From Micromonospora echinospora (GTDB lineage: Bacteria; Actinomycetota; Actinomycetes; Mycobacteriales; Micromonosporaceae), in the NCBI RefSeq assembly GCF_900091495.1, contig NZ_LT607413.1:3534001-3598000 (forward strand): 64,000 bases of DNA. Reading direction: 5' to 3'. Below are positions 8,092-60,874 of the stretch, piece by piece (position 1 is the stretch's first letter; every line of letters starts with the position of its first letter). The position numbers and the translations under genes are program-made. The notes beneath the pieces are model-generated. The model saw nothing but the letters and a program-made list of their open reading frames with translations. It made no database searches and was not told the origin of the DNA.

Positions 8092-8324
8092 GGTCGCTCC
8101 TTCGGCAGAACCGGTGGTGCGGCGGACCGGTGGAGCGGGAACGGTTCGGTTCCGTCCGGTGACCGGTCGGCCCGGACCCGTCGCGCGGGTGGTCCGATCC
8201 GGGTGCGACAACGTGGCCCGACCTGCCCTCCACCAGGGTGTCCGCCGCCTTCTGCCGTCATGAAAGCGCAGGTCAGCGGGGGTGGCAATGCGCATGTCGG
8301 CCCCAGGACAGAACGGCCGCGCGG

Positions 8325-8639: not shown

Positions 8640-9212
8640 TCAGCGCTTACCGCCGGGAACCCATAGCACATCGCCGTCCGGATTTGCCGTTCTTGCCAGG
8701 ATGAAGAGCAGATCGGAGAGCCGGTTGAGATACTTTGCCGGAAGAGTGCTGGTTCGTTCGGGATCGTGGCTGACCAAGCCCCATGCCGCCCGCTCTGCGC
8801 GCCGGGCGACGGTCCGAGCCACGTGCAGCAACGCCGCGCCGGCGGTTCCGCCGGGGAGAATGAAGGAGTCGAGCTTGCCCAGGCGTGCGTTGAACTCGTC
8901 GCACCAGCCCTCCAAGCGCTCCACGTACCCCTCGGTCACCCGGAGCGGTGGGTACTCCGGCTCCGGTTCGACCGGGGTGGCCAGGTCGGCGCCGACGTCG
9001 AAGAGGTCGTTCTGGATCGAGGCCAGGACCGACCGCAGTTCCTCCGACAGCTGGCCCAGGGCCAGCGCCACCCCGATCGCCGCGTTGCACTCGTCGACGT
9101 CGGCGTACGCCGCGATCCGCGGATCGGTCTTCGCTACCTGCTCGTTGTTGCTCAGCCTGGTCGTGCCGGCGTCGCCGGCCCTGGTGTAGATGCGCGTGAG
9201 GTGGACGGCCAT
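8640..9212 (-). CDS. Cob(I)yrinic acid a,c-diamide/cob(I)alamin adenosyltransferase, PduO type
   Basis: 190 residues. Makes adenosylcobalamin from ATP and cob(I)alamin. The PduO/MMAB-type motifs are present: [20 protein letters not shown] at the N-terminus (ATP-binding TxxGDxGxT), [10 protein letters not shown] in the first helix, SFILPGGT, and the C-terminal [12 protein letters not shown] with LNRLSDLLF. Length is normal. The ATG at 9212 follows a TAGGCT box by 7 nt, so the mRNA is probably leaderless. It fits the neighbourhood: the window contains a B12-dependent acyl-CoA mutase and its chaperone MeaB, which need adenosylcobalamin. Its start codon overlaps the possible murA start on the other strand. 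Confidence 0.93.
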
Positions 9213-49443: not shown

Positions 49444-50124
49444 TTAGTGCTGGTTTGCCCCACGCCGACCGTCGGACGAGGGGTCGCCCAGTCCCTCGTC
49501 CCGGGCCGCGGTGATCGCCTCGGCGCGGCTGTTCACCTGGAGCTTCACCAGGATGGCGGAGACGTTGTTCCGCACCGTCTTGGGACTCAGCCCGAGCCGC
49601 TGCGCGATCCCGGCGTTGGGCAGGCCCCGGGCCAGCAGCCCGAGGATCTCCCGTTCCCGATCGGTGAGCTGCGGGAACGGCTCCGGGCGGTCGGAACCGG
49701 CGCGGAACAGCAGCGCGGCCCGACCCGCGACGGCGGCCCCGAGGACCAGGTCGCCGCTGGCCACCGCCCGGATACTGCGCTCCACGTCGGCGGCGCTGGC
49801 GCCCTTGAGCAGGTAGCCACGGGCCCCGGCGCGCATCGCCGCGACCAGCGACGCGTCGTCGGAGAGCATGGTCACGACCAGCACGCCGACGTCGGGGTGG
49901 TCGCGGGTGAGCACCCGGGTCGCCTCGACGCCGGAGCCCTGCCCGAAGTGCAGGTCCATCAGCACGACCGAGGGCCGTACGCGCGTGACGACCTGCAACG
50001 CGGTCGCCACGTCGGCGGCCTCGCCCACGCACTCGATGCCGTCGAGCGTGGACAGCAACGCCGTCATGCCGAGCCGGAAGACAGGGTGGTCGTCCACCAC
50101 GACGACCTGGATCGGTGCGCTCAC
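49444..50124 (-). CDS. NarL/LuxR-type response regulator
   Basis: 226 residues, GTG start overlapping the kinase stop by 4 bp. Receiver domain at 1-120: acidic pair in VVVVDDHPVFR, phosphorylated Asp57 in VVLMDLHFGQGSG, Lys in YLLKGAS. LuxR-type helix-turn-helix at about 150-210 (LTDREREILGLLARGLPNAG, LGLSPKTVRNNVSAILVKL). Partner of the kinase encoded just upstream in the same unit. Targets unknown. The 152-bp gap downstream (49292-49443) is upstream of the next gene; it is less GC-rich and likely contains that promoter. Confidence 0.94.
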   Translation of the reverse strand: MSAPIQVVVVDDHPVFRLGMTALLSTLDGIECVGEAADVATALQVVTRVRPSVVLMDLHFGQGSGVEATRVLTRDHPDVGVLVVTMLSDDASLVAAMRAGARGYLLKGASAADVERSIRAVASGDLVLGAAVAGRAALLFRAGSDRPEPFPQLTDREREILGLLARGLPNAGIAQRLGLSPKTVRNNVSAILVKLQVNSRAEAITAARDEGLGDPSSDGRRGANQH

Positions 50125-52058
50125 GGCAGCTCCAGGGGGATGGTCAGCCGCACCATGGTGCCGCGTGGGTCGGCCGGGCCGATGGTGAGGGTTCCACCGA
50201 TGCCGTCGGCCCGTTCCCGCATCGCGTGCAGGCCGACGCCCCGGGTCGACCCGACGGGCGGGCCCTGACCGTGGTCGGTGACGACGACCCGCAGCAGGTC
50301 CGGCCGCCGCTCCAGGGTGACCGTGCAGTGGTTCACCCCGGCGTGCCGGTGCACGTTGCGCACCGCCTCGGCGGTCACTCCGTAGGCGGCGGTGGCGACC
50401 GAGCCGGGCAGCGGGTCGAGCGGCACCGGGACGTGCACGGCGATGTCCAGCCCGGCCCGCGCGTACTGGTCGCGCAGGGTGCCCACCGCGGGTTCCAGGC
50501 CGCCGTCGGCGAGCACCGGCGGCAACAGGCCGTGCGCCAGGTCCCGGACGTCCTCGGCGCGCGTGGTCAGCTCGGCGATCAGCCGCTCCAGCAGGTCGTC
50601 CGCGCGGGCCGGGTCGCGGTGCAGCAGGTTGCGGGTGGCGGCGAGGCCGAGACCGATGCCGCTCAGCGCCGGGCCGAGCCCGTCGTGCAGGTCCCGACGC
50701 AGGGCCCGGCGCTCCTCGTCGCGGGCCTCGGCGAGCCGTCGCCGCGAGCGGGTCAGCTCCTCGTTGGTCCGGGCGAGATCCACCACGGCGGCGACCACCG
50801 GGGCGAGCCCGGTGAGCGCGTCGGTGACCCGGCCGCCGAGCAGTTCCCCCGGACGCGGCCAGGCGTGCAGGTACCCGACCGGGCGACCTCCACTGGTCAG
50901 CGGCACGGTCACCGGCGTGCCCCCGGCACGCGGGGGCGGCTCGGGCCCGTCGGCGGTGACCAGCACCTCGGCGAGGCGCAGCGCGGCGGCGATCACCGGC
51001 CCCAGCTCGGCGGAGCTGTGCAGGCTGTGGGCGACCCGGCGCATCAGGGGCTCCGGGCTGTCGCCGTGCACCAGCCGGTCCACGCCACGCTGCACCCACT
51101 GCCGCACCGGCTGGAAGGCGACCGCGATGGCGGCGGTCACCACGATCCGGGGCGCGGACGACGCGTCCGGCAGCACCCGGTCGAGCACGGTGACCCCGGC
51201 GCTGTACCCGGCGATCACCCCGGCGGTCATCAGGTACCAGACCAGGGCCCGCCGCACCGCCAACCGCAGCCCCCACATCTGCTGGCGGAGCACCACCACG
51301 GCGACCGCCGCCGGGAAGAACGCCTGCGAGGCGAGCATCAGCAGGGCGGGCACCGAGGCGGGCAACACCGGCGGCAGCACGGTGACCAGGAACGCGAGGG
51401 TCAGCAGCGTACTGCCCGCGGTCGCCCAGCCCATGCCGTGCCGCTGCTGGCGCGGGCCGTGCCTCCAGCGCCACGCGCAGGCCGCCGCGGCGAGCAGACC
51501 GAGCAGCACCAGGGCGTACCCGACCGACCCGGCGAGCGCGGCGCGGACCGCCGTGGCGGTGGGCCCGAGCGGGACCAGGCCGCGTGGTGGCGGCGCGGTC
51601 AGCACGAGGACCCACATCAGCGCCACGTATCCGAGCCCGACGGCGACCGCGACCCGCTCGACGCGGGTCGGCGTCCGTTCCGGCAGCAGCCACGGCATCA
51701 CCACGACCAGCGCGTACAGGCCGGGAACCCAGGCCCAGTGATGCGCGGACAGCAACCAGTACGGGCCGTCGGCCAGCAGGTCCCACTGGGCGGCGAACGC
51801 GGACAGGGACCCGCCGACCCCGGCGGCCGCGACGATCCACCCGGCGAGCCGACCGCCGGTGCGTCGCCGGCTCAGCACGAGCCATGCGACGCCGCCGTAG
51901 ACGATCCCGTCCATGAGGTCCACCAGCGAGTACAGCTGGGTGTCGGTGAACGCCGGCAGCGCGACACACCACATCACGATCGCGGCGGTGGTGCACCCGG
52001 TGGTGACGGCGAGGACCACCCAGGCGGCGATCCGGTCGGGCGGGCGGGGAGTCGACAT
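50121..52058 (-). CDS. Multi-pass sensor histidine kinase (NarL-pair type)
   Basis: 645 residues. About nine N-terminal membrane helices (for example AGWIVAAAGVGGSLSAFAAQ and VPALLMLASQAFFPAAVAVV) form the sensor region; no large extracellular domain, so it probably senses something in the membrane. Then a GAF-like segment (about 325-440) and HisKA_3 with the phosphorylated His458 in RRDLHDGLGPALSGIG, and HATPase_c with AVRNVHRHAGVNHC and DHGQGPPVGSTRGVGL. Coupled to the response regulator gene by a 4-bp overlap. The signal is not known. Confidence 0.92.
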   Translation of the reverse strand: MSTPRPPDRIAAWVVLAVTTGCTTAAIVMWCVALPAFTDTQLYSLVDLMDGIVYGGVAWLVLSRRRTGGRLAGWIVAAAGVGGSLSAFAAQWDLLADGPYWLLSAHHWAWVPGLYALVVVMPWLLPERTPTRVERVAVAVGLGYVALMWVLVLTAPPPRGLVPLGPTATAVRAALAGSVGYALVLLGLLAAAACAWRWRHGPRQQRHGMGWATAGSTLLTLAFLVTVLPPVLPASVPALLMLASQAFFPAAVAVVVLRQQMWGLRLAVRRALVWYLMTAGVIAGYSAGVTVLDRVLPDASSAPRIVVTAAIAVAFQPVRQWVQRGVDRLVHGDSPEPLMRRVAHSLHSSAELGPVIAAALRLAEVLVTADGPEPPPRAGGTPVTVPLTSGGRPVGYLHAWPRPGELLGGRVTDALTGLAPVVAAVVDLARTNEELTRSRRRLAEARDEERRALRRDLHDGLGPALSGIGLGLAATRNLLHRDPARADDLLERLIAELTTRAEDVRDLAHGLLPPVLADGGLEPAVGTLRDQYARAGLDIAVHVPVPLDPLPGSVATAAYGVTAEAVRNVHRHAGVNHCTVTLERRPDLLRVVVTDHGQGPPVGSTRGVGLHAMRERADGIGGTLTIGPADPRGTMVRLTIPLELP

Positions 52059-52162: not shown

Positions 52163-55100
52163 TCAGCTCGCCGTCACCGCCGCGCCGGTGACCCTGATCT
52201 GGTCGATCACCGAGGCGACCTCCGGCAGCCGTTCGGTGTAGACGTTCGCGGCCAGGCGCTGCGAGTGCGTCTCGTACAGTGCGCCGAGGGCGTCGGCCCG
52301 TTCGATGGCGACCGCGTGGATGCAGTTGCCCAGGTACTCGTTCGGCGAGCCGGGGCTGTCCGCGCCCGAGCAGGCCGGTGAGTAGATGGGCGTCTGCCCG
52401 GCCCGGGGGTCGATCTCGGTCATCCCGTCCGGGCACGGGTCACCGGCAGCGCTTTGCGTACATGGGGCGTAGTTCGCCTCGGCGACGACGTACGCCCGGC
52501 TGATGTTCGTCTGCGGCAGCTCCCGCCCCACCGGGGCGGCCGGGTGCCGGTAGTCGCTGGGCAGCGGCGTGTCCCCGAACAGGTGGCCGCTGAGCGACCC
52601 GTCGTTCTCCAGGGCGACCGGGAACCCGAGTCTGGTGTACGCCTGGAGCAGCCGCACCATCTCGGTGATCTTCTTGTTCTTCGCCCGCAGCTGCGACGTC
52701 GGGTCCGCGAACGCGTCGTTGACCACCTGGTGGTACTGCTTCTGCTTGCCCCACAGCATGCGGTCGGCCTTGGTCCGGGCGATGGTGAGCCGTTCCGGGT
52801 TGTCGGCCGAACCGGCTCCGCTCTCGAACGCGGTCCGGTGCCCACCGTCCTCGTACCTCATCACGTACGTCTCGTCGTGGCAGTAGCCGGTGGGCGGGTT
52901 CTCCCGGGTGCTCCAGGAGCAGATGATTCCGGCGCTGTGCGTGTTGCGGTGGCTCCGCACGTCCATCCAGAAGTCGCCCTGGTTCAGGCTCATCTGTTGG
53001 CGCACGGTGAGCTGGAGGTCCGCCGTGGTGGTCTCCAGGCGCGGTCCGGTGGTGGTCCGGAAGTTGACGAAGACGGCGTCGTAGCAGATCCGGAAGTGGG
53101 GCTGGAACTGCTCCTTCGTCCCGTAGGTGAGGAGCTGCAACGCATTCGGCAGGTCGGCGAGCTGGACGTTGGCCGGAATCTGGACCCGGGGCAGCCCGTC
53201 CTGCCCGCAGCCGTTCATCTTGCCATCGGCGTTGTACGACTTCTCGTCCTTGCCCTGCGCGTTGGGAACGGCTGACCAGTACGAGCGGGTGTTGGTGAGC
53301 CGCACCGGCGGTGCCTGGTCCGGGCCGTACCACGGGTTGTAGCCGCCGCCGGTGACCGAGTCCCGCAACCGCCGGAGTTCGGCCGACTGGGCGTTGACCG
53401 CGCTCCGGTAGCCGTCGACGAGGCCGGTGAACAACGCGTTGCGGTGCCCGTCCGGACCGGGCTGGCTGAACCGGCTGCCGGCGTCCAGGATGCTCTGGCC
53501 GGAGCGGCGAAGCCGGACGGCGAACGAGTTCTCGCTGGTCATGTCGCCGGCGAGCGCGGGATTCTCCAGGGCGAGGGCGTTGTACGCGCGCGCGGACATC
53601 GTCCACACCCCGGCGTGCGGCACCCGGTTCGTCGCCGGGAAGGTCGGGTCCCACGTCCGGGCCAGGTGGGACAAATAGTCGACGGCGCCGTACGGGCCCT
53701 TCTCGTCGAGCACCCGTGCCGGGTCGGTGCCGGGCTGCGCCCACTCGGTGGGGGTGAGCACGAACGGCGCGCCGGTGCTGGTGGACGTGGCGGTGGTGAA
53801 CAACCGGCCCTCGGCCTCGTCGTACTGCGCGACGCCGAGCGTGCGCCCGTTCCGCGCCCGGTAACCGACGTACGTGTTGATCACATACTCGGTGTCGCTG
53901 AGGGCGCTCTTCTTCAACGCCTCCTGCATGGACAGGCTGAGCTGGTCCACTCGGCTCTCCAGGCCGCCGATCTGGCGCTTCACCGCGTCGATGTCGCGGA
54001 TGATCCCGTCGAGGTCGGTGCTCATCTTCAACATGATCGACATCACGTCGTCGTAGATCGCCGTCAACATCGCCTCGACCCGGTCGAACCGGTCGTGCAT
54101 CTCGGTGCGCAGGGCGGCCACCTGTTCCCGGAGCTTGCCGATCTCCTGCATGACCAGTTCGTGCTCGGACGGACCGGAACCGAAGAAGAGCGGCGCGAGC
54201 GTCATCACCGCGCCGAGCACGTTGCCGGTGAGCACGATCGTGCTCAGCGAGCCGAGCGCCTCGCTGAGCCCGAGGCCGGCGACCGTGGGCAGGTACTGGT
54301 TGATCGCGGTGGCGATGCCGACGGCGGCCTTGCCGAGCGCCAGCACCTCCTTGCCGGCCTTCTCGTCGGCGAAGCCGGCGAGCGTGGCGAGGATGCTGAC
54401 GGCGGACCCGGCCGCGTCGATGGCGACCTGTCGGCTCGCGGCCTCGGCGAGCGCGTTCGTGTAGTCCTGTGGGGTGGGCTTCGGGCCCGGACCGACCGGG
54501 TACTTCAGGTCCGCCGCCGCGAGCCGCTCGATGATCTCCGCGTTCTGCCCGGAGACCTTGTCGAGGGCCGTGGTGAGCTGGGTACGCAGCGCGGCCAGGT
54601 ACGCCTGCTCGTTCCCGAGGTGCTCCAGGATGGCCTCGGTGTTGATGAACGAGGCGAGCACCGGGTCGGCGAGCAGCTGCTCCGTGGTGGCTGTGGCCCG
54701 CACGTTGACCTGCGCGCCGATCGTGCCGTCCCACGCGGCGGCCAGGTCCGCGTCCTGGGCGGCGGCGCGGGTGAGCTGTCCCCAGGCCCGTTCCTGCACC
54801 CCGTACAGCGCGTCCATCCAGCGGTAGTGCTGGTAGGCGCTGGTGACCGCGTCCTCGACCTCGGCGGACGCCGTCACCGTCCCGCCGATGGTGGCGTCCA
54901 GCAGTGCCTTGACCATCGGCGCGCCGATCGACACCCCGGGTACGCCGGACAACGCGTCGATGACCTTGATCGTGGTGGCGTACGTGGTCCGGGCGGTGGT
55001 GTCGGAGACGCCGGCCGCGTCCACGGCCTGCCGGGTGGCGACCAGGTGCCGCACCACATCGTCCCGGGAGGCGCCCCGGTTGGCCGTCCGCCAGTCCAAC

Positions 55101-55324
55101 AGCTCCGCGGTGAGGACCAGGTTCTTCAGCCCGGCTACGCCACCGTTGTGGGCCCGCATGTAGGCCGCGAACACCCCGTCGTGGAACTTCGCGGCCTGGT
55201 AGTCCACCGGGTCGGTGGCGACCGCCGGGCTGGGTGCCAGCGCCACGACCGCCGCGACGGCTGCGGCGATCAGCGGGCGTAGCCACGCCCGGCGACGCCG
55301 GACGCGTCTGGGAAACACACGCAC
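52163..55324 (-). CDS. Large secreted protein of unknown function with helical hydrophobic and coiled-coil regions
   Basis: 1053 residues from GTG 55324, the start with a good site (CAGGAGGATCCC). Arg-rich signal peptide (PLIAAAVAAVVALAPSPAVA). Residues about 30-330 are helical; about 330-390 hold hydrophobic segments (AAGSAVSILATLAGFADEKA, STIVLTGNVLGAVMTLAPLF). Residues about 400-490 are a predicted coiled coil (EIGKLREQVAALRTEMHDRF, VKRQIGGLESRVDQLSLSMQ). The rest is a mixed domain with several Cys pairs, such as IICSWSTRENPPTGYCHDE and CTQSAAGDPCPDG. I recognise no named family; the hydrophobic-then-coiled-coil plan recalls alpha-helical pore-forming proteins, which is only an analogy. 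Divergent from the peptide/JmjC genes. Confidence 0.75.
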   Translation of the reverse strand: MRVFPRRVRRRRAWLRPLIAAAVAAVVALAPSPAVATDPVDYQAAKFHDGVFAAYMRAHNGGVAGLKNLVLTAELLDWRTANRGASRDDVVRHLVATRQAVDAAGVSDTTARTTYATTIKVIDALSGVPGVSIGAPMVKALLDATIGGTVTASAEVEDAVTSAYQHYRWMDALYGVQERAWGQLTRAAAQDADLAAAWDGTIGAQVNVRATATTEQLLADPVLASFINTEAILEHLGNEQAYLAALRTQLTTALDKVSGQNAEIIERLAAADLKYPVGPGPKPTPQDYTNALAEAASRQVAIDAAGSAVSILATLAGFADEKAGKEVLALGKAAVGIATAINQYLPTVAGLGLSEALGSLSTIVLTGNVLGAVMTLAPLFFGSGPSEHELVMQEIGKLREQVAALRTEMHDRFDRVEAMLTAIYDDVMSIMLKMSTDLDGIIRDIDAVKRQIGGLESRVDQLSLSMQEALKKSALSDTEYVINTYVGYRARNGRTLGVAQYDEAEGRLFTTATSTSTGAPFVLTPTEWAQPGTDPARVLDEKGPYGAVDYLSHLARTWDPTFPATNRVPHAGVWTMSARAYNALALENPALAGDMTSENSFAVRLRRSGQSILDAGSRFSQPGPDGHRNALFTGLVDGYRSAVNAQSAELRRLRDSVTGGGYNPWYGPDQAPPVRLTNTRSYWSAVPNAQGKDEKSYNADGKMNGCGQDGLPRVQIPANVQLADLPNALQLLTYGTKEQFQPHFRICYDAVFVNFRTTTGPRLETTTADLQLTVRQQMSLNQGDFWMDVRSHRNTHSAGIICSWSTRENPPTGYCHDETYVMRYEDGGHRTAFESGAGSADNPERLTIARTKADRMLWGKQKQYHQVVNDAFADPTSQLRAKNKKITEMVRLLQAYTRLGFPVALENDGSLSGHLFGDTPLPSDYRHPAAPVGRELPQTNISRAYVVAEANYAPCTQSAAGDPCPDGMTEIDPRAGQTPIYSPACSGADSPGSPNEYLGNCIHAVAIERADALGALYETHSQRLAANVYTERLPEVASVIDQIRVTGAAVTAS

Positions 55325-55427
55325 GTCGGGATCCTCCTGATCCGTCCGCGCCAACCGGTCGGCAGGCGCGGACGGCAGTGTGCGGGTGGCGCGGTCCCGG
55401 CCAGCAGAGGCGGGAGTCCCGGGACGG

Positions 55428-55488
55428 CCGGGACACGGTGGTACCGCCGTTCGGGTGATCCCGGGTGTCCCGGCCGGGTCGGGACACC
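55428..55488. promoter_or_regulatory. Triple half-site cluster in the divergent promoter region
   Basis: CCGGGACAC at 55428-55436, and a palindrome GGTGTCCCG (55464-55472) / CGGGACACC (55480-55488) 28 bp further on. The three related half-sites lie between the secreted-protein gene and the repeat peptide gene and may be a common operator. The binding protein is unknown. Confidence 0.4.
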
Positions 55489-55531
55489 GGCCCCTGGCGA
55501 CCGGGACGGCGCGGCCCGTTGACTGTCGGTC

Positions 55532-55813
55532 ATGACCTCTTCTCCGGACCACATCCCGGCCCACGTCAAGGGTTCCTACGTCAACTGCGACCAGTACACC
55601 CGCGAGGCGCGGCTCACCCCGCCGCCGGTCACCGACCACTTCCCGGCGCACGTCAAGAACTCGTACGTCAACTGCTCCGAGTACGCCCGCGAGGCGCGGC
55701 TCACTCCGCCGCCGGCCGCCGAGCACTTCCCGGCGCACGTCAAGAACTCGTACCCGACCTGCCAGGAAAGGGTGCGGACGGCCCAGCTCACCGCCGTGCC
55801 GGCAGCGGCATGA
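55532..55813 (+). CDS. Triple-repeat peptide, probable precursor/substrate of the JmjC oxygenase
   Basis: 93 residues: a 5-residue start, then three 29-residue repeats at 6-34, 35-63 and 64-93. The common part is H-[IF]-PAHVK-x-SY-x-x-C; repeats 1 and 2 also share REARLTPPP, while repeat 3 diverges after its Cys. Each repeat has one Cys (19, 48, 77) and two His. No signal peptide, no membrane helix, no known domain. The stop overlaps the start of the JmjC gene (ATGA). This is the pattern of multi-core modified peptides, or of a tandem hydroxylation substrate. No ribosome site is clear before the ATG, so it may be leaderless. No protease, transporter or other maturation gene is adjacent. Confidence 0.75.
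   Translation: MTSSPDHIPAHVKGSYVNCDQYTREARLTPPPVTDHFPAHVKNSYVNCSEYAREARLTPPPAAEHFPAHVKNSYPTCQERVRTAQLTAVPAAA
55547..55810. repeat. Three in-frame 87-bp direct repeats
   Basis: Units 55547-55633, 55634-55720 and 55721-55810 encode the peptide repeats. Units 1 and 2 are most similar and differ in part by synonymous changes (for example GCCCACGTCAAG versus GCGCACGTCAAG), which points to selection on the amino acids rather than very recent copying. Confidence 0.85.
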
Positions 55814-56826
55814 CGACGCTGCACGCCCCGACCCGGCTCGGCGACACCTGGCGGGAGTGGCTCGCCGAGAACCTGGCCATGGGCGCCTCCGTCGACGAGG
55901 CGCGGGCGGCCGCCGTCGCCGGGTGCGGGGACGCCGACGCGGTCGACGCGGAACTGGCCGAACTCACCGGCCACCCGTACTTCGCCGTGTGCCGCCGGCT
56001 CGCGCTGCGCTACGACTGGATGGAGTCCGTGCTGGACACCTACCGGGCGCTGCGCAACAGCGACGGGGGCGGCACGCTGGAGCGTCGCGCCGACCTCACG
56101 CCGGAGGAGTTCTTCTCCCGGTACTACTTCGGGAACCGGCCGGTCGTGATCGAGGGCCTGATGACGGACTGGCCCGCCCTGGAGTGGACGCTGGAGAGCC
56201 TGGCCACGAAGTGCGGCGACGCCCAGGTCGAGGTGATGACCGGTCGGGACGCCAACCCGGACCACGCCTGGCAGTACGACCGGCACCGCACCACCATGCC
56301 GTTCCGCGACTACCTGACGGCCCTCGGTTCCGGCGTCCGCACCAACGACTACTACATGGTCCCCCGCAACGAGAACTGGTCCGGACCGCTGCGGCCACTC
56401 GCCGCCGACGTACGGCCCCCGGCGGGGATCGTGGACCCGTCGGCCGTCGGGCACCTGCTGCTCGGCCCGGCCGGCACGGTCACGCCGCTGCACGTGGACA
56501 ACAGCAGCGTGCTGCTCTGTCAGGTGCTCGGCCGCAAACACGTCCGGCTCGTGCCGTCGTACGAACGACACCTCGTCTACCCCCGGGGCGGCACGTTCAG
56601 CGCGGTCGACGCGGCCGACCCGGACCCCGTCCGGCATCCACGGTTCGCCGAGGCGACCGTGCTGGAAACCGTCCTGGAACCCGGTCAGATGCTGCTCGTC
56701 CCGGTGGGCTGGTGGCACTGGGTGGAGGCCCTGGACGTCAGCGCCACGGTCACGTTCCACCATTTCTGCACGCCGGGGCAGAACCACAAGATGGCGACGC
56801 CGCCCGCCGCGGGCCAGGACGACTGA
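55810..56826 (+). CDS. JmjC/cupin-8 family Fe(II)/2-oxoglutarate oxygenase
   Basis: 338 residues. An N-terminal helical module (WREWLAENLAMGASVDEARA, HPYFAVCRRLALRYDWMESV) leads into the JmjC barrel: FGNRPVVIEGLMTDWPALEW at the start, HLLLGPAGTVTPLHVDNSS with iron ligands His228 and Asp230, and PVGWWHWVEALD with His303. Proteins of this group (as human FIH) hydroxylate Asn, Asp, His, Arg or Lys side chains. The ATG overlaps the stop of the repeat peptide and a terminator follows directly, so the two genes form a closed unit and the peptide is the most likely substrate. Known family, inferred substrate. Confidence 0.88.
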   Translation: MTTLHAPTRLGDTWREWLAENLAMGASVDEARAAAVAGCGDADAVDAELAELTGHPYFAVCRRLALRYDWMESVLDTYRALRNSDGGGTLERRADLTPEEFFSRYYFGNRPVVIEGLMTDWPALEWTLESLATKCGDAQVEVMTGRDANPDHAWQYDRHRTTMPFRDYLTALGSGVRTNDYYMVPRNENWSGPLRPLAADVRPPAGIVDPSAVGHLLLGPAGTVTPLHVDNSSVLLCQVLGRKHVRLVPSYERHLVYPRGGTFSAVDAADPDPVRHPRFAEATVLETVLEPGQMLLVPVGWWHWVEALDVSATVTFHHFCTPGQNHKMATPPAAGQDD

Positions 56827-56859
56827 CCAGCACCCGTACGCCCGACCGTGACGTGTCAC

Positions 56860-56893
56860 CGGACACCCCGTCGCACCCGCGACGGGGTGTCCG
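56860..56893 (+). terminator. Hairpin after the JmjC gene
   Basis: 14-bp perfect stem, CGGACACCCCGTCG and CGACGGGGTGTCCG, loop CACCCG, 34 bp after the stop. It closes the peptide/oxygenase unit before the conservon. Confidence 0.85.
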
Positions 56894-57075
56894 CGTACGT
56901 TCGTCCACCGTGGATGGAACCGCGCCGAACCCCGGCGGACGGAACGGACGGTAGTGCATCAGCGCACGATTACGTATCCTGCCCAAGGCGCTCGTACCGG
57001 TGCCCGGTGCGCCGGGCGTCGCTGCCCGGCCGGCTGCCGGCGCCACTCCTGCCACACCTTCCGGGCGAGGTGCTG

Positions 57076-59496
57076 ATGAACTCCCACGACTGGCCGATCC
57101 GCACCAAGCTGACCGCGCTGGTCGTCGTCCCGGTGGCCGCCCTCCTGGCACTGTGGATCTTCGCCACCACACTGGCCCTCGGGCCGGCCCTCGACCTGCT
57201 CGCCGCCCGCACCCTGCTGCGGGACCTGGGCCTGCCCGGTGACCGGGTGGTGGTCGAGCTGCAACGGGAGCGCCGGCTCTCGGTGGTGCACCTCGCCGGC
57301 CCCGGCGAGGTGACCGGGCTGTCCGAGCAGCGGCAGCGGACCGACGAGGCGGTGGCCGAGCTGCGGAGCCGGGCCGGCGGCCGGGACCTGCGGGACGCCG
57401 CCGACGACCTGGTCGACGCCCGCCTCGACCGGCTGTTCACCGCCCTGGAGGCGCTGCCCGCCGGGCGGAGGTACATCGACCGGCGGCAGGTGGACCGGAC
57501 CGGCGCGCACGGTCTCTACACCGACATGCTCGACACCCTGTTCCAGACCTACTCCGCCATGGCCACCGGTCCGGACGTCGACCTGACCCGGCAGGCGCGG
57601 GCGATCAGCACTCTCGGCCAGGCCCGGGAACTGCTCGGCCAGGCCGACTCGCTCGCCGCCGGGGCGTTCACCGCCGGCCGGTTCGCCCGGGGCGAGCACG
57701 CCGCCCTCGTGCAGACCATCGGCAACCAGCGGTACGTCACCGCCGTCGCCGTCGACGACCTGCCGGCGGCCACCCACACCGCCTTCCAGCGGCTGACCGA
57801 GGGGGCGGACTTCCTCCGGCTGCGGCGCATGCAGGACGAGCTGGTCGCCGCCGATCCCGGCGACCCGCCGTCGGTGGACGCCCGGACCTGGCAGACCACC
57901 CACGACGTCGTGCAGCGCCAGCTGCGGGACTTCGAGCTGGCCGAGGCGGAGGCGCTGACCGAGCGGTCGGTGCCGGCGGCCCTCGGCATCCTCGGTCGGC
58001 TCGCCGCCGCCGGACTGCTCGGCCTGGTGGCCGTGGTGGTCTCCCTGGTGGTGGCGTTGCGGGTCGGCCGTTCCCTGGTGCGGCGGCTGACCGGGGTCCG
58101 GACGGCCGCGACCGAACTGGCCGAACGGCGACTGCCCGACGTGGTGGCCCGACTGCGTCGGGGCGCGGAGGTCGACGTCGCCCGGGAGGCCCCGCTCCTG
58201 GAGTTCGGCACCGACGAGATCGGTCAGGTCGGGCAGGCGTTCGCCGCCGTCCAGCGGACCGCGGTCCAGTCGGCCGTGGACGAGGCGGCCCTGCGGCACG
58301 GGCTCAACCAGGTCTTCCTCAACATCGCCCGGCGCACCCAGGGGCTGGTGCACCGGCAGCTCGCCCTGCTCGACCGGATGGAACGTCGTACCGAGGACCC
58401 GGAGGAGCTGGCCGAGCTGTTCGGCGTCGACCACCTCGCCACCCGGATGCGTCGGCACGCCGAGGCCCTGGTCATCCTCGCCGGGGCGGCGCCCGGGCGG
58501 GGCTGGCGCAACCCGGTCGCCGTGCTCGACGTCGTCCGGGGGGCGATCTCGGAGGTCGAGGCGTACGACCGGGTGGACATCGCCCCGGTGCGGCCGGCGG
58601 CGGTGGTCGGCCGGGCCGTCGGCGACGTGATCCACCTGCTGGCCGAGCTGATCGAGAACGCCACCGCCTTCTCCTCTCCGGAGAGCCGGGTGCGGGTCCA
58701 CGGCGAGATGCTGCCCAACGGGTACGCCGTGGAGATCTCCGACCGGGGCCTCGGGATGACCGCCGACGCGATCGAGGAGGCCAACCGCCGACTCGCCCGG
58801 TCCCCGGAGTTCGACCCGGCGACCAGCGCCCGCCTGGGTCACTTCGTGGTGGCCCGGCTCGCGGCCCGACACGGTGTCCGGGTCCGGCTGACCGCCGGCG
58901 CGCAGGGCGGGACGACCGCCGTGGTGCTCCTACCGCCCGACCTGATGACCACCGAGCCGCCGCGACCGACCGTCGACCGGTCCGGCGACCGGATGGCCAA
59001 GGTGACGAAGCTGAGCACGCTGCCCCGTCCCCGCTCGATCCGCTCGGCGCGCCGGCGGCCGGAGCCGCCCTCGGTGGTGCCGCTGACCGCGGCGCGGTCG
59101 GGGCCGGCCGAGATCCCGGTCGGCCCGGACGGGCTGCCCCGGCGGGTCCGGCAGCGGGGCCCGGCCCGGCAGTCCCGCCGTCCGGTTCCCGTCGAACCGT
59201 CGCCGCGCACGCCCGAGCAGGTGCGGGCGGCGATGGCGGCGCTCCAGTCGGGCACCGCCCGGGGCCGGCGCGCGGGCGCATACCCGGCCGAGTCCACCCC
59301 CGCGCCGTCGGCGGTGGACGGGCCTGCCGCCGGGCCGTCCGCCACCGGCGCCGGGCCGGTCGACGCCCCCACGGTGCCGGCCGCCCCGGCCGTGCCGGCC
59401 GAGGCGACGGCGGACCAACCGACCACGGAGCTACCCCGGGTGCGGCCCGGTGGAGCGTCCGTCGAAACTGTCACCGGACGTGGAAGGGACGGGTAG
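57076..59496 (+). CDS. Conservon sensor, CvnA-type histidine-kinase-like protein
   Basis: 806 residues from ATG 57076. First membrane helix (LTALVVVPVAALLALWIFAT), an extracellular nitrate/nitrite-sensor-like helical domain (about 45-310), second helix (LLGLVAVVVSLVVALRVG), HAMP-like linker, then a kinase-like core with FLNIARRTQGLVHRQLALLD in place of a normal dimerisation His motif and HATPase_c with LLAELIENATAFSSPESRVR and DRGLGM. The C-terminal 170 residues are disordered, Pro/Ala/Arg-rich. Such proteins head the four-gene conservons of actinomycetes and scaffold a Roadblock protein, a DUF742 protein and a small GTPase, all of which follow here. Confidence 0.93.
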   Translation: MNSHDWPIRTKLTALVVVPVAALLALWIFATTLALGPALDLLAARTLLRDLGLPGDRVVVELQRERRLSVVHLAGPGEVTGLSEQRQRTDEAVAELRSRAGGRDLRDAADDLVDARLDRLFTALEALPAGRRYIDRRQVDRTGAHGLYTDMLDTLFQTYSAMATGPDVDLTRQARAISTLGQARELLGQADSLAAGAFTAGRFARGEHAALVQTIGNQRYVTAVAVDDLPAATHTAFQRLTEGADFLRLRRMQDELVAADPGDPPSVDARTWQTTHDVVQRQLRDFELAEAEALTERSVPAALGILGRLAAAGLLGLVAVVVSLVVALRVGRSLVRRLTGVRTAATELAERRLPDVVARLRRGAEVDVAREAPLLEFGTDEIGQVGQAFAAVQRTAVQSAVDEAALRHGLNQVFLNIARRTQGLVHRQLALLDRMERRTEDPEELAELFGVDHLATRMRRHAEALVILAGAAPGRGWRNPVAVLDVVRGAISEVEAYDRVDIAPVRPAAVVGRAVGDVIHLLAELIENATAFSSPESRVRVHGEMLPNGYAVEISDRGLGMTADAIEEANRRLARSPEFDPATSARLGHFVVARLAARHGVRVRLTAGAQGGTTAVVLLPPDLMTTEPPRPTVDRSGDRMAKVTKLSTLPRPRSIRSARRRPEPPSVVPLTAARSGPAEIPVGPDGLPRRVRQRGPARQSRRPVPVEPSPRTPEQVRAAMAALQSGTARGRRAGAYPAESTPAPSAVDGPAAGPSATGAGPVDAPTVPAAPAVPAEATADQPTTELPRVRPGGASVETVTGRGRDG

Positions 59497-59918
59497 TGGT
59501 GCAACCCACGAGGCAGGCCACCGATCTCGACTGGCTGCTCGACGAACTGGTGGACCGGGTGCCGGCCGCCCAGCAGGCGGTGGTCCTCTCCGCGGACGGG
59601 TTGCTCATGGGAGCCTCCGCCGGGCTGGAACGGGACGCGGCCGAGCACTTCTGCGCCATGGCGTCCGGCTTCGCCAGCCTGGCGAAGGGGGCCAGCCGGC
59701 ACTTCGCCGCCGGACCGGTGCGTCAGACGGTGGTCGAGATGGAGTCGGCGTACCTCTTCGTCACCTCCGCCGGCCAGGGCGCTTGCCTGGCCGTGCTCAG
59801 CGACGCCGACTCGGACATCGGCCTGGTGGCGTACGAGATGGCCATGCTGGTGACCCGGGTCGGCGAGACACTCAGCGCCCCGTCCCGGGCCTCGACGGGC
59901 GTGGCCGATGCAGGCTGA
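59496..59918 (+). CDS. Conservon Roadblock/LC7 protein, CvnB type
   Basis: 140 residues, GTG start overlapping the previous stop by one base (TAGTG). Roadblock fold: ATDLDWLLDELVDRVPAAQQ, AVVLSADGLLMGASAGL, then EMESAYLFVTSAGQGACLAV with IGLVAYEMAMLV. In the conservon it joins the GTPase and the kinase-like protein at the membrane, possibly as a GTPase regulator like MglB. It overlaps the next gene by 11 bp. Confidence 0.93.
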   Translation: MVQPTRQATDLDWLLDELVDRVPAAQQAVVLSADGLLMGASAGLERDAAEHFCAMASGFASLAKGASRHFAAGPVRQTVVEMESAYLFVTSAGQGACLAVLSDADSDIGLVAYEMAMLVTRVGETLSAPSRASTGVADAG

Positions 59919-60297
59919 GCCGCCGGGGCCCCGGCACGAGTGGCTGGACGACGAGGCCGGCCCGGTCGTCCGCCCGTACGCCGTCACCGGTGGACGGGTG
60001 AGCCCGGCCGCCGGTGACTTCGACCTGGTCGCGTTCGTGCTGGCCACCCGGGACACCGACCCGGACGACCACCCCCACCTGCACCCGGAGCACCGGCACC
60101 TGGTCGAGCTGGCCGTCGAGCCGGTGTCGGTGGCGGAACTCGCCGCCCACCTCGACCTTGCCATCGGCGTGGTCCGGGTGCTCCTCGGTGACCTGCTCAC
60201 CGGCGGACTCGTCACCGTGCACGAGCCGCCGTCCACTGCGTACCTTCCCGACGACAACATCCTCAAGGCGGTGGCGAATGGACTCCGTGCACTCTGA
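59908..60297 (+). CDS. Conservon DUF742 protein, CvnC type
   Basis: 129 residues. Family start WLDDEAGPVVRPYAVTGGRV, later EHRHLVELAVEPVSVAELAA and LDLAIGVVRVLLGDLLTGGL, a winged-helix-like stretch with helix-turn-helix character. Overlaps neighbours at both ends (11 and 20 bp), showing a tightly coupled operon. Confidence 0.93.
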   Translation: MQAEPPGPRHEWLDDEAGPVVRPYAVTGGRVSPAAGDFDLVAFVLATRDTDPDDHPHLHPEHRHLVELAVEPVSVAELAAHLDLAIGVVRVLLGDLLTGGLVTVHEPPSTAYLPDDNILKAVANGLRAL

Positions 60298-60874
60298 CCG
60301 TGACGGATCCGGCCAGCGGGTTCCGCTGGCACTGAAGATCCTGATCGCCGGGGGCTTCGGGGCCGGCAAGACGACCCTGGTGAGTGCGCTGAGCGAGGTC
60401 CGTCCGTTGCAGACCGAGGAAGTGCTCACCAGTGCCGGCGTCGGCACCGACGACACCTTCGGCGTGGAGGGCAAGTCCACCACCACGGTTGCCATGGACT
60501 TCGGTCGGATCACCATCAACGAGGACCTCCAGGTCTACCTCTTCGGCACGCCGGGGCAGGACCGGTTCTGGTTCCTCTGGGACGAGCTGGCCTTCGGCGC
60601 GCTGGGCGCGGTGGTGCTCGCCGACACCCGTCGGCTGGCCGACTGCTTCCCCTCGGTGGACTACTTCGAGCAGCGCGGCATCCCGTTCGTGGTCGGGGTG
60701 AACTGCTTCGACGGCTCCCGCCGGTTCAGCCTCAACTCGGTGCGGCACGCGCTGGACCTCGACCCGGACGTGCCGCTGGTGCTCTGCGACGCCCGCGACC
60801 GCCAGTCCGGCAAGCTGGTGCTGGTCGCCCTGGTGGAGCACGTCGCCGCGCAGCGCGGCGAGCCGGCCGCCTGA
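60278..60874 (+). CDS. Conservon small Ras-like GTPase, CvnD type
   Basis: 198 residues from ATG 60278. P-loop ILIAGGFGAGKTTLVSALSE (G1), TTTVAMDFG (G2 region), VYLFGTPGQDRFWFLWDELA (G3, TPGQ in place of DxxG), and GVNCFDGSRRF (G4, NxxD). This is the MglA-related GTPase of conservons. It ends the operon. The combination of exact order and overlaps makes the assignment secure; the signal and output are unknown. Confidence 0.94.
   Translation: MDSVHSDRDGSGQRVPLALKILIAGGFGAGKTTLVSALSEVRPLQTEEVLTSAGVGTDDTFGVEGKSTTTVAMDFGRITINEDLQVYLFGTPGQDRFWFLWDELAFGALGAVVLADTRRLADCFPSVDYFEQRGIPFVVGVNCFDGSRRFSLNSVRHALDLDPDVPLVLCDARDRQSGKLVLVALVEHVAAQRGEPAA

Follow-up and report, generated by a model that had tools for sequence, protein, structure and literature searches.

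A repeated-core peptide gene paired with a JmjC oxygenase in Micromonospora echinospora and its relatives: a candidate two-gene RiPP-like module

We analyzed a stretch of 64,000 nucleotides of the Micromonospora echinospora genome (NZ_LT607413.1, positions 3,534,001 to 3,598,000; hereafter the window), in which a small gene for a repetitive peptide overlaps a gene for a JmjC/Cupin_8 oxygenase. The unit consists of the following features, in window positions:

55468..55524, plus strand: conserved promoter-like array TCCCGG-N6-CGGGAC-N7-CCTGG-N4-CGGGAC-N11-TTGACT, from alignment, ending 7 nt before the ATG
55532..55813, plus strand: 93-aa peptide with cores VKGSYVNC, VKNSYVNC and VKNSYPTC, from open reading frame (ORF), translation and repeat analysis
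55810..56826, plus strand: 338-aa JmjC/Cupin_8 oxygenase with an N-terminal four-helix domain (residues 12-84), from profiles, alignment and fold comparison
56860..56893, plus strand: perfect hairpin after the unit, with 15-bp arms, a 4-nt loop and no T-run

A previous reading of the window from its letters alone (the sequence-only reading) had described a 93-residue protein of three 29-residue repeats with one Cys each, and the ORF at 55532-55813 and its translation agree with this. At the DNA level, the ORF comprises three 87-nt units at a spacing of exactly 87 nt (55547-55633, 55634-55720 and 55721-55807), identity to the first unit being 85% for the second and 61% for the third. The reported ATGA overlap was also found, the oxygenase start codon (55810) lying on the stop codon of the peptide gene. 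The core pattern [VIL][KR]x[STN]YxxC matched three times in the six frames of the window and had no match outside 55400-57000. No leader was recognized in the peptide by eye, and an NCBIfam scan of the peptide gave no family up to E 1. A Pfam match to Exc fell below threshold (17.3 bits against a cut-off of 23) and was dismissed.

The oxygenase matched Cupin_8 (E 5.2e-35, 122 bits, cut-off 27.4) and JmjC_2 (E 3.8e-9, 36.6 bits, cut-off 22) in Pfam. Its iron triad H228, D230 and H303, called intact by the sequence-only reading, was invariant in 37/37 aligned oxygenases, the window's included, and stayed so when two cyanobacterial relatives were added. Equally invariant in the 37 sequences were K243, Y182 and T225, 2-oxoglutarate-site residues with counterparts in JMJD5. 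As predicted from these residues, the iron and 2-oxoglutarate sites of the window oxygenase are complete. Human JMJD5, an arginyl hydroxylase, was its closest solved relative and FIH was among the closest folds; the N-terminal domain searched alone gave no clear fold match.

We then evaluated how regularly the two genes occur together across 354 genomes of the family. Querying with the peptide (E 0.01 or better) matched 25 genomes, seven of which (G151, G234, G294, G299, G024, G306, G315) were dropped as chance-level because of E values above 0.0018, internal stops and the lack of a core in their loci. The remaining 23 peptide genes, a count that leaves out one weak match (G244:C107, E 0.006), belonged to 18 genomes. 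Three cores were present in 8 of these genes, two in 3 and one in 12, so that repeat number varies, a check suggested by the sequence-only reading. An oxygenase gene lay within 1.5 kb of 18/23. The five other copies (L018, L026-L029) were extras in genomes holding a linked pair; two of them were about 4 kb from it, with kinase and regulator genes intervening, and the other three had no oxygenase in the 16 kb around them. The sequence-only reading had held that peptide homologues regularly lacking the oxygenase would count against it: counted by genome, a linked oxygenase was present in 18/18, while 5/23 copies stood without one within 1.5 kb.

The reverse query gave an even tighter association. 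Searching the same genomes with the oxygenase (E 1e-30) matched 25 genes in 23 genomes, and a core-bearing peptide adjoined 25/25. Five of these genomes had been missed by the peptide query, their peptides diverging outside the core. Two oxygenase genes were split by a frame break (L062:11308-12329 and G313:C1:4923818-4924833), which may reflect decay or sequencing error. In 25/25 relative loci (314,628 bases), the core pattern was present upstream of the oxygenase at a distance of no more than 1.5 kb, and its single match elsewhere fell in another genuine peptide gene. When seven of these upstream regions, 1.6 kb each, were Markov-shuffled, each yielded 0-0.005 matches. The pairing of peptide and oxygenase exceeds chance. 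The genome of M. echinospora itself holds a second pair (G000:C1:4867953-4870101; L139:7954-10101, minus strand), in which a BTAD/SARP regulator and a JmjC oxygenase share one 715-codon open frame and the core-bearing peptide is read in another frame, between the BTAD and oxygenase parts. G219 (L140) showed the same BTAD-oxygenase frame by translation.

The pair also recurs outside the family. A genome collection contained 27 relatives of the oxygenase, 25 of them adjoined by a core, some at places apparently identical to those of the family search (e.g. L031-L039). Fourteen loci were new, 13 myxobacterial and one on a contig labelled Comamonas, and the peptide gene was divergent from the oxygenase in 13/14. 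In Minicystis, six single-core peptide genes stood in tandem upstream of the oxygenase. The contig labelled Comamonas (L041) fell inside the Myxococcus clade of the oxygenase tree, has Myxococcus gene order and is probably mislabelled. Searches with the oxygenase gave one distant match (31%) in plasmids and no match in phages. The occurrence of the pair in two phyla, together with the variation in repeat number, strongly supports the proposal of the sequence-only reading that a peptide with repeated cores is coupled to a single oxygenase.

A second core type was found beside related enzymes. Six of the 12 genomes searched, all Myxococcaceae, had a second cluster of tandem oxygenases with the same architecture, and in 5/5 clusters fetched the oxygenases were interrupted by a small ORF read from the other strand, which encodes 1-3 IVPNP copies and ends in a proline-rich tail. 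The IVPNP ORFs, from sequence reading and all opposite to the oxygenases, are:

L130 near 8832-8877
L131:8128-8298
L132:7127-7372
L133:9050-9217
L134:8102-8272

In a tree of 46 oxygenases, which leaves out the two split genes and whose group labels we assigned ourselves, the IVPNP-associated enzymes grouped in a clade of their own (99/95), separate from the VKxSYxxC enzymes (98/93). Neither the myxobacterial VKxSYxxC enzymes nor the one-core group was a single clade. Another core beside another oxygenase clade is the pattern expected of a substrate.

The peptide genes of Micromonospora further share their upstream sequence. We aligned 19 of the 23 family peptide genes, three of them unlinked and all from Micromonospora (L011, L018, L028 and L030 were left out), and found the common array CCCGG-N5/6-CGGGAC-N7-CCTGG-N4/5-CGGGAC-N10/11-TTGACT-N6/7-ATG. 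Fifteen of the 19 fit it strictly and 18 with one-letter leeway; L017 did not fit. Invariant columns numbered 25/89 in the array region and 0/142 farther upstream, and the two CGGGAC boxes were 22-23 bp apart. The array stands upstream of the three unlinked genes as well. Unlinked peptide genes with it lie around 8001-8100 in L058, L059 and L060; the one in L058 comes after genes resembling, by eye, an aminolevulinate-synthase/acyl-ligase cluster. Among the other genera, L011 has the array boxes, and L018 and L028 (both unlinked copies) and L030 have only parts. For a transcript starting at the ATG, TTGACT would occupy the position of a -10 box. A standard promoter scan found nothing. A search of 160 genomes from the genus with part of the array gave 16 matches in 13 genomes; judged by coordinates, 15 immediately precede peptide genes, and one (G189) does not lie at a peptide gene. 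The control, the pattern reversed, had matches in 3 genomes. Another part occurred once elsewhere in the M. echinospora genome (L159 near 8263-8291; G000:C1:5172262), between a HisKA_3 kinase/response-regulator pair, like the window's, and a BTAD (SARP-type) gene. Given this occurrence and the G189 match, we relaxed the view that the array is unique to peptide genes. The perfect hairpin said to close the unit was verified, and the segment 56827-56910 folds better than 200/200 shuffles (z -4.68). A terminator scan did not call the hairpin.

We next compared the pair with described systems. In full-text searches of open-licence papers, the matches listed included no paper on such a peptide-JmjC pair, an absence that is not proof. 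Among those matches, the nearest precedent comes from biphenomycin, with its JmjC ornithine hydroxylase. As the matched passages describe them, biphenomycin/pbs clusters for ribosomally synthesized and post-translationally modified peptides (RiPPs) use a JmjC/cupin-like oxygenase (BipG, BpmG, PbsQ) to modify a ribosomal precursor peptide, and the biphenomycin-type JmjC protein acts on ornithine (PMC12257519, PMC12707348). The likeness lies in a JmjC/cupin-like oxygenase with a ribosomal precursor, predicted here from the genes alone. In those passages, however, the JmjC protein works alongside other enzymes (MNIO, arginase, B12-rSAM, TldD), whereas here it is the sole enzyme kept with the peptide; the motif described there, FHAFRF, also differs from our core. 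A survey of RiPP recognition elements (RREs) mentions, in its matched part, PF08007 JmjC proteins with an RRE-like domain and bacterial homologues in RiPP-like contexts (PMC12710340). Compared with JMJD5/KDM8, a human arginyl C-3 hydroxylase, the oxygenase here does not plainly keep the Arg-pocket residues, and it has an N-terminal four-helix domain and an adjoining small peptide gene. JMJD7 and FIH are animal enzymes, and neither is known to have a linked peptide gene. In multi-core RiPPs, a single precursor carries the core repeatedly and is encoded next to one modifying enzyme. The present arrangement is similar in having repeated cores in one gene beside one such enzyme, but differs in that no leader is seen by eye, no protease or exporter is found in all loci and the enzyme is of another class. 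By gene content, the pair appears RiPP-like with a predicted JmjC oxygenase as the only conserved enzyme beside the peptide.

Taken from the sequence, the pair is probably a two-gene RiPP-like module whose oxygenase hydroxylates each core. The oxygenase would bind the peptide, perhaps aided by its N-terminal helical domain, and, with Fe(II), O2 and 2-oxoglutarate, would hydroxylate every HVKxSYxxC core, the likeliest site being the side chain of the near-invariant Lys. Several cores per gene in Micromonospora, or tandem genes in Minicystis, would let each enzyme produce more modified units or more kinds of them, and in Micromonospora transcription from a shared, perhaps leaderless promoter would let unlinked peptide genes feed the same enzyme. 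The modified peptide might then be cleaved, exported or act within the cell.

Core statistics from 68 cores in 44 loci bear on which residue is modified. Lys was present in 66/68 cores and Arg in two. The residue preceding Cys was Asn in 34, Thr in 16, Asp in 15, Glu in two and Val in one, and the residue preceding Val, the second His of the repeat, was His in 56 and Asn in 12; these positions were left free in the search pattern, so the counts are unbiased. The first His was variable, being Gln in one L008 repeat and Ser in L050, L053, L089-L091 and L095. Of the targets proposed by the sequence-only reading (His, Asn or Lys), the first His is not conserved, the second is Asn in 12 cores and the Asn before Cys is often Thr or Asp; Lys was kept. 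By analogy, the core Lys is perhaps the target, a choice we make tentatively; it is favored because JMJD5 acts on Arg, JMJD7 hydroxylates Lys and the biphenomycin-type enzyme, in the passages matched, acts on ornithine. Tyr, Val and Cys are further candidate targets in the core.

Several observations weigh against a module that hydroxylates Lys. The search pattern itself required V/I/L, K/R, S/T/N, Y and C, so the constancy of these residues arises partly by construction. The Arg-binding E238 and Y243 of JMJD5 align to M143 and N149 (phmmer alignment), so a pocket for a basic residue is not plainly conserved; E141, two residues off the JMJD5 Arg-site position on the same strand, is invariant. 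Clustering of neighbors showed no protease or exporter common to all loci. Finally, some relatives of the oxygenase lack a nearby core: two in cyanobacteria (L056, L057), two in actinobacteria (G638, G540), and two weak relatives in Minicystis together with one fragment in G752. A class-wide oxygenase search at E 1e-40 matched 3/394 genomes, namely M. echinospora and two without a core. Upstream of one cyanobacterial relative, an ORF (L057:1116-1637) has repeated GV[LM]PI[DE] units and a proline-rich stretch and is possibly another repeated partner.

A less probable target than Lys is the Asn or Asp before Cys, which the oxygenase would hydroxylate at the beta carbon in the manner of FIH acting on ankyrin repeats. 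The FIH site is V-N, of which the VN, VD or VE in 49/68 cores is reminiscent, and the fold similarity to FIH and the 16 cores with Thr, which already bears a beta-hydroxyl, fit as well. This position nevertheless varies among Asn, Thr, Asp, Glu and Val, making it less likely as a fixed target than Lys, Tyr or Cys.

Upstream of the pair in the window lie:

49444..50124, minus strand: response regulator with a LuxR-type (GerE) domain, from Pfam
50121..52058, minus strand: histidine kinase (HisKA_3), from Pfam and locus clustering
52163..55324, minus strand: large divergent protein with a signal-peptide-like N-terminus by eye, scanned as 52163-55336 with the start codon picked by eye

The large protein, putatively secreted, had no Pfam or PDB match; it accompanies the pair in six loci, counting that of the window. 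Kinase homologues occurred in 10/18 loci of the window's subtype, again including the window, with Pfam confirmation for the two scanned. A BTAD/SARP regulator was present in L050 and L053. L054, the Myxococcaceae locus scanned in full, encoded an extracytoplasmic function (ECF) sigma factor, a zf-HC2/TPR protein and a TPR-CHAT protein. A CHAT (caspase-like) gene was adjacent in 3/3 Myxococcaceae loci scanned (L054, L044, L046) and stood beside 3/4 IVPNP clusters scanned; the TPR-like gene beside the fourth (L133:2619-5405) had no Pfam match. Major facilitator superfamily (MFS) transporter genes lay in the flanks of L031 and six myxobacterial loci, in the latter about 4-5 kb beyond the oxygenase, and Pfam was run on two:

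L046:11403-12941: MFS transporter gene
L031:2924-4552: MFS transporter gene

The MFS gene may be an exporter or a chance neighbor. As to the earlier statement that no protease or exporter is adjacent, none was recognized by eye beside the pair in the window (not a systematic scan); other loci have the CHAT and MFS genes just described. Downstream in the window, at 56848-60874 (plus strand), the genes are conservon-like by eye (sensor, roadblock-like and further proteins); the hairpin separates them from the pair.

It is unlikely, yet worth considering, that the peptide is an intracellular control element whose O2-dependent hydroxylation tunes an adjacent regulator (a two-component system, SARP or ECF sigma factor). 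Regulators adjoin the pair in several lineages (HisKA_3 in 10/18; BTAD/SARP in L050, L053 and the own-genome frame; ECF sigma with zf-HC2), and the lack of an exporter common to all loci fits. Against it, the regulator type differs by lineage, 8/18 subtype loci have no kinase within 6-8 kb of flank, and regulators are common next to any biosynthetic cluster. More doubtful still is a new class of peptide signal, in which core units hydroxylated by the stand-alone JmjC oxygenase and released from multi-core precursors would be read by the adjacent two-component system or another linked regulator; that regulator would in turn drive the array, also in front of unlinked peptide genes. We consider it improbable that the peptide activates, inhibits or scaffolds an oxygenase that acts on another protein: some copies are located away from the oxygenase and JMJD5 acts on proteins, but the varying number of cores per gene and the other core beside the other enzyme clade better fit a substrate. 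That the small ORF is a DNA or RNA element open by chance is hardly credible, for although the third-codon-position excess between close relatives is modest (e.g. 4, 6, 9 against L002), the same amino acid core occurs in two phyla and on either strand relative to the oxygenase, and the promoter-like array precedes the ATG.

The pair of peptide and oxygenase genes, with differing numbers of one short core, is shared by actinobacteria of the soil and myxobacterial predators and suggests a family of bacterial peptides, modified by an enzyme, that has not been described before. In the matched passages of the RiPP papers, a JmjC hydroxylase appears only as one tailoring step among several (PMC12257519, PMC12707348); if our interpretation is true, this would be a ribosomal peptide family defined by a single JmjC hydroxylase. 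The diversity found in nature (genes with one to three cores or six genes in tandem, two core types, two phyla) would make substrate choice directly testable, and the conserved upstream array would offer a handle on regulation. Bacterial relatives of JMJD5 with a likely substrate encoded next door would also be useful for the question of how such enzymes choose their target residue.
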